Source: OCS155 cluster bacterium AG-426-D23 (lineage in GTDB: Bacteria > Actinomycetota > Acidimicrobiia > Actinomarinales > Actinomarinaceae). From it: a stretch of 64,000 bases of DNA. Each line of letters opens with the position of its first letter. The first letter of the stretch is position 1. The notes under the pieces were generated by a model. That model did not search any database, was not told where the DNA came from, and saw only the letters and a program-made list of their open reading frames with translations. A program made the position numbers and the translations under genes. Below are positions 1 through 40,958 of the stretch, in pieces. The DNA lies in NCBI GenBank assembly GCA_003213165.1, contig QCNO01000001.1, positions 1 to 64,000 of the forward strand, in the 5' to 3' direction.

Positions 1-867
1 AATATTGATTTGAATAATGTAGTTGGTACAGGTCAAAATGGAAGAATAAAAAGAGAAGATATTGAAAATTACATTTCATCGGGAAATCAAGGCTCTACTA
101 CATCAACTATATCAGAGGATTCAATCAAGAAAGAAACTACTCAATCAGCTGATAAAAATAAATCAATATCTAGATTGAGAAAAAGAATCGCAGAAAATAT
201 GGTTTTATCAAAACAAACATCTGCTCATGTAATGACTTCTATCGAAGTAGATTATGAAAATGTTGAAACAATCAGATCAAAACAAAAAGTTAAATTTAAA
301 GAAGAAAATGGTTTTTCGCTAACCTATTTGCCATTCATTTCATTAGCAACAATTTCTGCATTAAGAGAATTCCCATCCGTCAATAGTTCTTTTGACATAG
401 AGAAAGGCATTCATGATATTCATAGTCATGTAAACCTTGGTATTGCTGTCGATTTAAATCAAGAAGGGTTATTGGTTGGAACTATAGCAGAAGCTGATTC
501 CTTCAACTTAAAAGGATTAGCAAGAAAAATTTCAGAAACATCAAGGTTATTAAGAGATGGTAAGTATGGTTTAGAGGATGTAACAGGAAGTACTTTTACA
601 ATATCAAACAATGGTTCATTTAACTCTTTCATCACATCACCAATAATAAATCAACCAAATGTAGCTATTTTATCAACAGAATCTGTCAAGAAACGACCTG
701 TAGTAATACAATCACAAGATGGTTCTGATTCAATAGCTATAAGACATACAGGAGTTTTAAGTTTAACTTGGGACCATCGAGTATTTGATGGTTCTATTGC
801 TTTGTTATTTTTAAATCATATAAAGGATAAATTAGAAAACCCTGATTGGTCACAGGGATTAGATTGA
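1..867 (+). CDS. 2-oxo acid dehydrogenase E2 component (dihydrolipoamide acyltransferase), 5'-truncated by window edge
   Basis: Frame open from base 1: NIDLNNVVGTGQNGRIKREDIENYI (E3-binding domain) followed by catalytic domain ending in DHRVFDG. Confidence 0.9.
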   Translation, partial: NIDLNNVVGTGQNGRIKREDIENYISSGNQGSTTSTISEDSIKKETTQSADKNKSISRLRKRIAENMVLSKQTSAHVMTSIEVDYENVETIRSKQKVKFKEENGFSLTYLPFISLATISALREFPSVNSSFDIEKGIHDIHSHVNLGIAVDLNQEGLLVGTIAEADSFNLKGLARKISETSRLLRDGKYGLEDVTGSTFTISNNGSFNSFITSPIINQPNVAILSTESVKKRPVVIQSQDGSDSIAIRHTGVLSLTWDHRVFDGSIALLFLNHIKDKLENPDWSQGLD

Positions 868-37727: not shown

Positions 37728-38873
37728 CTAATCATCAAAATTGGCTTTTATAATTTCGTAAATAGGCCAACCATATGGAATACATCCATCAGTACCTTTA
37801 CTTTGTTGCATCATTACTGGTGCAATTGCACCTTCTTTAGGACAACTTGTGTGCCCCCAACCTAAAATATGGCCAGTTTCATGATTGATGAGATACAGTC
37901 TGTAAGTTTCTAAATCTCTTAAAAAATCCCAAGCACCATTTTTCCATCTAAAGTCATTGATAACTATCTCTCTTTCATTTCTACATGAATATATCCCATT
38001 TGTTTGCAAGGGGTAACAAAGTTCGTCAGTAGTTTCAGGAGAAGCAAATATATAGACGAAATCACTGTCTTCAACGTTTGTATGATAGAAAGCTTTATCA
38101 GTTACATTTATCCAGCCTTTTTCGTGATTCAATATCAAATCTAATAATTTTTTTATACACTCAGGATCGATATTTAAAGAAGATTCAACCTTTATTCCAT
38201 AATTAAACTTTTTGTCATCTCTTGAATTTAGAGTTTCAACTTCAATCAGTTCAGGATTCTCTATAGGAACATCTAAATTCTCTAGATAACATCCAATTTT
38301 CAGGTCTTCTGTTTCTAACTCCTTGGATTTTGCGACAGATTCGTCTGATAAAAATATAGATGTAATATTGTCATCTTGATTTTCTTTTATTCTTATTACT
38401 TCCTCAACTTCTTTTAATTGTGACGAAAAGAAATTTACTTTCTCATTAATTGTTAAAGTTGAAACAATATACAAAAATGTATCTTCATCTACATTGGAAT
38501 AATTATTTTTAAAATAATTCAAGGTGTATTCATAATGTTTTAGGTAAGTATCTTTCTTGCTATCGATAATTTTTAATGAATTTTCCCATTCTGCAAGACA
38601 CTCTTTTGTTAAGCTGAACCAGTTTCCTGTTGTGTAACATAAGTCACTTATAGATTCCAGCGAAGATGTTGTTTCCTTTTCAAAATCAAAACTTGGATAA
38701 GCATATTTTTTAATATTAACTTCGGGGGATGTTGTTGTGGTAGCTTCAAATAGTGTTGTTTGAGTTACTTCTAAACTTTCTTCAGAAGCATTATTGTTGA
38801 AAAAGTTTATACCAAATACACTTAAGGAAATTAAAAATACAAAAAGGAGTAAACCTTTAGTGTTTTGTTGCAT
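37728..38873 (-). CDS. Secreted metzincin-like putative metalloprotease (DUF3152-like)
   Basis: LINHETGHILGWGHTSC (HExxHxxGxxH) with downstream VMMQQS Met-turn-like segment; N-terminal hydrophobic segment. Confidence 0.75.
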   Translation of the reverse strand: MQQNTKGLLLFVFLISLSVFGINFFNNNASEESLEVTQTTLFEATTTTSPEVNIKKYAYPSFDFEKETTSSLESISDLCYTTGNWFSLTKECLAEWENSLKIIDSKKDTYLKHYEYTLNYFKNNYSNVDEDTFLYIVSTLTINEKVNFFSSQLKEVEEVIRIKENQDDNITSIFLSDESVAKSKELETEDLKIGCYLENLDVPIENPELIEVETLNSRDDKKFNYGIKVESSLNIDPECIKKLLDLILNHEKGWINVTDKAFYHTNVEDSDFVYIFASPETTDELCYPLQTNGIYSCRNEREIVINDFRWKNGAWDFLRDLETYRLYLINHETGHILGWGHTSCPKEGAIAPVMMQQSKGTDGCIPYGWPIYEIIKANFDD

Positions 38874-38913: not shown

Positions 38914-39474
38914 TTATTTTTTATAACCTTTTTCGTCAATAAATTCCTCAGGCTCCAAACCAAGTCCATCGGCAACTCTATTGATGTAATTAAAGTAGGA
39001 AATTACTTGAACTATTTCTGATATCGCTTTGTCATCAAAATTATTTTTTTGTAATTCTTTGTAATCTAATTGTGTTATCTCACCCGGTTTCAAAGTCAAT
39101 TTTTCCGCAAAATTACATAAAGCATTTTGTTCTTTTGTTAAGCTACTTTTTTTCCAATCATTAGCAATCTCATCAACTAATTTTTGGTCTTTTGTCTCCG
39201 ACCGGAGATCATATAAATGTGCTCGAATTCAATATTCGCATTCATTGGAAATTGAAGTGATTACTGCGAGTAATTCTCTATCAAAACGAGATATTTCTAA
39301 ATTTCCAAACATTGTTGAATTATATAATCGCATTGAATCTCTTAAAATTTCTGGGGTTTGAGATTGAATTGTCAGAATGTTCCAAATTCTTCCAGCTCTT
39401 CTCATGCCTTTCTCATACTCTTTTTTCAGAAGACCAGTAGAGTCTTTAAATTTGAACAATTTAATAAATGCCAT
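38914..39474 (-). CDS. AhpD-like / carboxymuconolactone decarboxylase family peroxidase-related protein, candidate selenoprotein with Sec at TGA 39231-39229
   Basis: Single frame across two track ORFs: MAFIKLFKF...RFDRELLAVITSISNECEY[TGA]IRAHLYDLRSETKDQKLVDEIANDWKKSSLTKEQNALCNFAEKLTLKPGEITQLDYKELQKNN...EKGYKK. The TGA occupies the second Cys of the family CxxC-x3-H motif. Confidence 0.85.
39193..39211 (-). promoter_or_regulatory. Candidate bacterial SECIS hairpin
   Basis: Minus strand UG(A)UCUCC-GGUC-GGAGACA: 5-bp perfect stem extended by 2 bp past a bulged A, GGUC apical loop starting 25 nt after the UGA. Confidence 0.65.
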
Positions 39475-39504: not shown

Positions 39505-39948
39505 ATGCAACTTCCTAATGAACTTAAGCAAGCAATTGATAACAATGCTTTTTGTGCATTATCAACCAAAATCAATGAAAAAGAGATGCAGAATCATTTA
39601 ATGTGGGTTGATTACAAAGATAATAAAATTCTTATCAACACAGAGCAAGGAAGAAAAAAAACAGTAAACATTAGGAAGGTACCATATATTTCACTCGTTA
39701 TATTTCATCCATCTGATATGTATACATGTTGGGAGATAAGAGGCGTTGTTGGGAATATTGTTCAAGATTCAACTGCAAATGACCACATAGATTATTTATC
39801 AAATAGATATTCAGGTAAACCATACGGTAGAACAAAAGATGTCACTTGGGAGCAAGCTGGATTCAAATCAAGAGAAATATGGGAAATTGATGTTAATAAG
39901 GTTATATCTATGGTCAGCAGAGCTCAGGCAAAATCAGCGTCAGAGTAA
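39505..39948 (+). CDS. PPOX-class (pyridoxamine 5'-phosphate oxidase fold) F420-dependent-like protein
   Basis: FCALSTKINEKEMQNHLMWVDYKDNKILINTEQGRKKTVNIRKVPYISLVIF...WEIRGVV. Confidence 0.8.
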   Translation: MQLPNELKQAIDNNAFCALSTKINEKEMQNHLMWVDYKDNKILINTEQGRKKTVNIRKVPYISLVIFHPSDMYTCWEIRGVVGNIVQDSTANDHIDYLSNRYSGKPYGRTKDVTWEQAGFKSREIWEIDVNKVISMVSRAQAKSASE

Positions 39949-40620: not shown

Positions 40621-40958
40621 GGGGGTGAACTGGCTTCGACTTTGAAGCGAGTCTCTCAGTAGCGAGTCGAGGGTCCTAGGGCCTCGTAAAAAACGTAGGA
40701 AAACAATATAACTGCCAAACCTAAGTTGGCTTTAGCAGCCTAACCGCTGCTCGTCACCTATCGGGGCTCCCACCTCGGATAGCAATGGCGTCGAAATGTG
40801 GGATGCTGAGTTGGGTTACCGACTGACTCTTAAGATTTAGGTAAACCTGTTAGGTTATAGGTTCCGATGACTTGCCTAATAGTAAACCATCGGATGCACT
40901 CGGAGAAGCTGTTTGATAGCTTGGAAGGACCGGGGTTCGACTCCCCGCACCTCCACCA
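40621..40958 (+). ncRNA. ssrA: tmRNA
   Basis: 5' GGGGGUGAACUGGCUUCGACU..., 3' ...CCGGGGUUCGACUCCCCGCACCUCCACCA; acceptor GGGGGUG/CACCUCC pairing; tag ORF ending ..TTG GCT TTA GCA GCC TAA (LALAA*). Confidence 0.97.

Follow-up and report, generated by a model that had tools for sequence, protein, structure and literature searches.

The question raised by this locus is whether a TGA triplet, lying in frame at the second cysteine position of the CxxC motif of an AhpD-like gene, ends the gene or encodes selenocysteine. The window, i.e. the whole stretch of 64,000 nucleotides that was analysed, has a G+C content of 33% and comes from a draft assembly of 'Candidatus Actinomarina' (Acidimicrobiia) comprising 964 kb in 18 contigs, with 86% completeness. 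Sequence comparisons make it almost certain that UGA codon 82 encodes selenocysteine in an AhpD-like thiol/selenol oxidoreductase. Computation shows a conserved TGA, its pairing with cysteine in homologs, constraint on a hairpin behind it, the decoding machinery in the host, and an AhpD fold with its active-site residues. The features concerned, all on the minus strand of the window, are as follows.

38914..39474, minus strand: predicted AhpD-like selenoprotein gene of 186 residues, with ATG at 39474, TAA at 38916-38914 and one in-frame TGA.
39274..39276, minus strand: codon of Glu67, the glutamate expected in the proton relay, 15 residues ahead of U82; invariant in 20 homologs and matching the Glu118-to-Cys133 spacing.
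39238..39240, minus strand: codon of Cys79, the partner cysteine of the CxxU motif; invariant.
39229..39231, minus strand: predicted selenocysteine codon 82, an in-frame TGA at the second position of CxxC; TGA in 33/33 genus copies, TGA or TGC/TGT in homologs from the class.
39217..39219, minus strand: codon of His86, the expected active-site histidine of CxxUxxxH; invariant.
39194..39210, minus strand: putative SECIS hairpin GAUCUCCGGUCGGAGAC, based on its fold, frozen codons 91-93, a compensatory change and the bSECIS rules.

With TGA read as U, residues 1-186 correspond to 39474-38917 of the minus strand, and the only TGA falls at residue 82 in the context NECEYUIRAHLYDLRSET (translation of 39474-38914), the read-through protein including NECEY-U-IRAHLYDLRSET. 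The preliminary description had joined two minus-strand ORFs, 39229-39474 and 38914-39099, into one 186-residue protein by reading through this TGA, and had expected gene callers to split or truncate the gene. Both ORFs lie at these coordinates and in one frame, the translation bears out the single protein, and standard gene calling does divide the gene into two ORFs, the second of which has a mechanical TTG start past the TGA, while true downstream coding begins at 39228. The read-through protein belongs to the TIGR01926 'peroxidase-related' family (137.7 bits against a curated cut-off of 81.8, E-value 3e-40) and is also matched by the Pfam CMD profile. Two related AhpD-domain models were considered and rejected, the selenoprotein model NF041238 AhpD_rel_CFYUT (58 bits, cut-off 175) and NF053654 GroundWater_YciW (seleno)protein (20 bits, cut-off 310). 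Mechanical read-through of TGA gives 16 candidates in the window including this gene, and no Pfam match was found for the ten others that were scanned.

In our comparison set the order of the host consists of one genus with 42 species. The gene was found in 33 of these, each copy carrying exactly one TGA and none lacking it; the CEYU column holds TGA in all 30 genus copies read directly. Public records of the gene carry the labels 'Candidatus Actinomarina' or OCS155 cluster and, to judge by isolate names, many of the source assemblies are probably single-cell ones. A sequencing or assembly error at the codon, for which the draft state of the genomes might speak, is vanishingly improbable and is refuted by independent assemblies, since assemblies made independently for 33 species, many of which are represented by single-cell genomes, have the identical TGA, as do 32 of 32 named public Actinomarina copies.

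Splitting of the gene by standard callers would also fit a true stop or a nonsense mutation, in which case the locus would hold a pseudogene or a pair of independent short genes. This reading is extremely improbable, however, and is refuted by the conservation of the TGA, which persists in 33/33 species despite synonymous sites that are saturated between many of them. Moreover, Ka is much lower than Ks upstream as well as downstream of the TGA, there are no other stops or frameshifts, and no copy with cysteine is seen in the genus. The earlier claim of intact downstream coding is upheld, and the extra stops or frameshifts in close relatives that the preliminary description had named as evidence against its own reading are absent from the relatives. 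The checks it had proposed by alignment of homologs and by genome search all bear out its reading.

Conservation extends to the class, where one TGA is also carried by about 14 relatives with 46-52% identity and by several tens of others with about 30-40%; more TGA copies are seen in other parts of the phylum. The TGA lies within CxxUxxxH in 26 of the 27 class TGA copies read directly, 13 more distant class homologs have TGC or TGT at the same column, and six proteins from other phyla show the same motif with cysteine (NECEYC). An alignment of homologs therefore shows U or C in this column, as the preliminary description had proposed in placing the TGA exactly on the second cysteine of CxxC, and an in-frame UGA at a column occupied by cysteine in homologs is what is expected of a bacterial selenoprotein. 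In a quick tree with some long branches, the genus is nested in a strongly supported clade containing only selenocysteine forms, with two changes of state overall. The gene was not found in nine of the 42 genus genomes (G008, G009, G013, G014, G019, G024, G033, G036 and G041). Two of these, G019 and G036, are 90% complete and yet keep SelA, a TGA-containing SelD and tRNA-Sec, so that real gene loss is possible in them.

The host genome contains the whole selenocysteine system. SelA was detected by profile search (6e-95); SelB is full length and overlaps the end of selA, although its score of 200 bits is under the curated cut-off of 242; tRNA-Sec has the anticodon UCA and scores 75 bits against a cut-off of 47; and SelD scores 363 bits. 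The four genes selA, selB, selC and selD, for which a search had been recommended from the outset, are thus present in one genome, as expected for a bacterial selenoprotein. Across the genus, SelA is above its cut-off in 34 of the 42 genomes, TGA-SelD and tRNA-Sec are each found in 40, and the eight genomes that are at least 90% complete possess all three. SelD of the host is itself a TGA selenoprotein with the motif GAGUACK (L007:1498-2550; G000:C8:14298-15224), and every SelD match of the genus (40/40) has one TGA.

Decoding of the UGA as another residue such as Trp or Cys, by suppression or an altered code, would likewise preserve the reading frame, as read-through alone does. We consider it very improbable: TGA is an ordinary stop that ends 12 of the 48 long ORFs of the window, the full selenocysteine system is present, and the codon sits at the redox cysteine column with a constrained hairpin after it. 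For selenocysteine, the scheme would be that SelB and Sec-tRNA(UCA) decode UGA 82, guided by the hairpin within the coding region about 25 nt downstream.

The predicted RNA fold of this hairpin is UCUCC-GGUC-GGAGA with one outer, bulged pair; the stem of 5 bp pairs 39208-39204 with 39199-39195, the loop GGUC occupies 39203-39200, and the distance from the TGA to the loop is 25 nt. Rules for bacterial SECIS elements call for a loop of 3-9 nt, a stem of 4-16 bp, G in the first two loop positions and a spacing of 16-37 nt, together with an energy of -7.5 kcal/mol or lower, the last being an empirical filter of prediction programs (PMC13188914). The putative hairpin agrees with the loop, stem, G-position and spacing rules, whereas its energy of -6.9 kcal/mol falls marginally short. 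Single-sequence folding compared with shuffled sequences is unremarkable (z of -0.29 for a 46-nt stretch and -1.97 for the 26-nt core), so that it is conservation and covariation that speak for the hairpin. Codons 91-93 (CGG TCG GAG) show zero synonymous change in 30 of 30 species, which is unique among 62 comparable columns. Stem pair 24-37 alternates between C-G and U-A in comparison with class relatives, with 11 cells altered on both sides and none of 500 shuffles reaching as high, and the genus lacks the two outermost pairs found in the stem of these relatives.

CGG is used for only one of the 530 Arg codons in window ORFs of 250 codons or more, and frozen CGG codons may mark SECIS elements in this genus. 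A second clade of AhpD-like proteins with predicted selenocysteine in Acidimicrobiia (L060-L071), with the motif CxxUxxHHRRGLR, has a longer hairpin nearer to the TGA, CCGGCGC-GGUCU-GCGCCGG, with compensatory changes of its own. An Rfam scan of the locus gave nothing relevant, and no SECIS motif common to selD was seen, the predicted folds past the selD TGA being variable.

The AlphaFold model (pLDDT 87) has the all-helical AhpD fold, and it resembles AhpD of D. radiodurans (6k40, TM-score 0.80) as well as related structures. The protein conforms to the pattern E-x14-C-x-Y-[CU]-x3-H, and E67, C79, Y81, U82 and H86 are invariant in 20 homologs except for U or C at position 82. These five residues map on the proton relay of the AhpD-like protein PA0269 (Glu36, Cys48, Tyr50, Cys51 and His55) and on Glu118, Cys130, His132, Cys133 and His137 of M. 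tuberculosis AhpD (PMC3141380). Because of this correspondence to both proteins, selenocysteine is placed where the relay has its second cysteine. In M. tuberculosis AhpD that cysteine, Cys133, is the one that attacks peroxide; the U82 selenolate would stand in for it, and E67, C79, Y81 and H86 would fill the proton-relay positions. U82 could then be oxidised by peroxide and resolved by C79 to a selenenylsulfide, to be re-reduced by a cellular dithiol, for which the likeliest donor would be the lipoyl-E2 of a 2-oxoacid dehydrogenase with Lpd.

The main job of such a selenocysteine enzyme could instead be electron transfer to a peroxiredoxin, as an adaptor, or other chemistry, rather than direct reduction of peroxide, and we give this somewhat less than an even chance. 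An adaptor role finds a precedent in mycobacterial AhpD, which hands electrons to AhpC (PMC6626918), and the host genome has three AhpC/TSA-family proteins without a TGA; other chemistry is suggested by the debrominase Bmp8 among the fold-search matches. On the side of a direct peroxidase, all five proton-relay positions of the peroxidase-active PA0269 are kept, with selenocysteine at the second cysteine, although an adaptor role is still compatible with this.

Gene order in relatives bears on the electron donor. In one family of the class (f10), no more than about 20 nt separate the gene from the E2 stop at six loci (L157, L158, L163, L164, L166 and L167). At a seventh (L165), E1-beta and E2 are followed by the gene after an interval of about 600 nt, and six of these seven loci have E1-beta in front of E2. 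E2 of this family has lipoyl, E3-binding and catalytic domains, and the arrangement spans several genera; adjacency of E2 and the selenocysteine AhpD is absent from the other class families looked at. In mycobacteria the E2 SucB and Lpd give electrons to AhpD (PMC6626918). Since the f10 gene stands directly behind E1-beta/E2, and mycobacterial AhpD uses E2 and Lpd, a lipoyl-E2 appears the likeliest donor and the best inference. The Actinomarina gene itself does not adjoin E2, and the donor is therefore extrapolated from relatives. The contig opens within the gene of a 2-oxoacid dehydrogenase E2, represented by its E3-binding and catalytic domains (window 1-843, plus strand), so the host genome has such an enzyme, though away from the AhpD-like gene. 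We tentatively suggest, at somewhat less than even odds, that the selenocysteine-only AhpD clade of Acidimicrobiia is a dedicated selenoenzyme to which 2-oxoacid dehydrogenases supply electrons through their lipoyl arms, and that it was kept in streamlined Actinomarina away from E2. If so, an operon of E1-beta, E2 and this AhpD would provide a direct coupling between central carbon metabolism and a peroxide defence that depends on selenium.

AhpD-like selenoproteins are known from marine metagenomes, as the preliminary description had correctly stated. A Sargasso Sea study of 2005 reported 27 sequences with CxxU (PMC1088965), the GOS survey of 2008 reported 299 sequences of 'AhpD-like 1', COG2128 (PMC2398784), and a 2026 review lists TIGR01926 with CxxU (PMC13188914). 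The present protein shares with them the TIGR01926 family, the CxxU motif, a hairpin just past the UGA and an origin in marine bacteria, and some of the published sequences may be this very gene. However, the metagenome members are mostly from short contigs without a host, whereas here a host genus, its selenocysteine system, conservation across 33 species and a class-wide clade are available. Cysteine-containing peroxidase-related AhpD-like proteins (PDB 6k40, 3c1l, 2oyo, 2pfx and 2prr) have the same fold and active-site motif, but carry Cys at the selenocysteine position and are about 22-32% identical in structural alignments. M. tuberculosis AhpD has its proton-relay residues at the same spacing as this protein, and the relatives' gene order suggests a similar E2/Lpd donor; it differs in its active-site Cys, in having His for Tyr81, in its two repeats and in its weak overall similarity. 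Phage records gave no match to the gene.

The protein family is thus already known. The present gene is a firmly supported member, and what is added here is the lineage that hosts it, the strictness of its conservation and an enzyme that is its probable partner. In the literature searched, no paper joins selenoprotein or selenocysteine with Actinomarina, selenocysteine with OCS155, or selenoprotein, AhpD and lipoyl. A family known mainly from metagenome reads, whose gene is split by standard callers, can be assigned a host lineage, and streamlined (about 1 Mb) ocean Actinomarina are seen to keep a whole selenocysteine system, which most species would use for an AhpD-like enzyme. The gene order in f10 is a clue to function that is possibly new, and E1-beta/E2/AhpD(Sec) offers a testable electron donor for an uncharacterised selenoprotein family.

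In the genus the gene is flanked by an F420/PPOX-type protein (window 39505-39948, plus strand) at 30 of 30 loci and by a DUF3152 protein (37728-38873, minus strand) at 29 of 30, neighbours with no clear functional link. Near the locus there is also a tmRNA gene (window 40621-40958, plus strand) with the tag AKPKLALAA.
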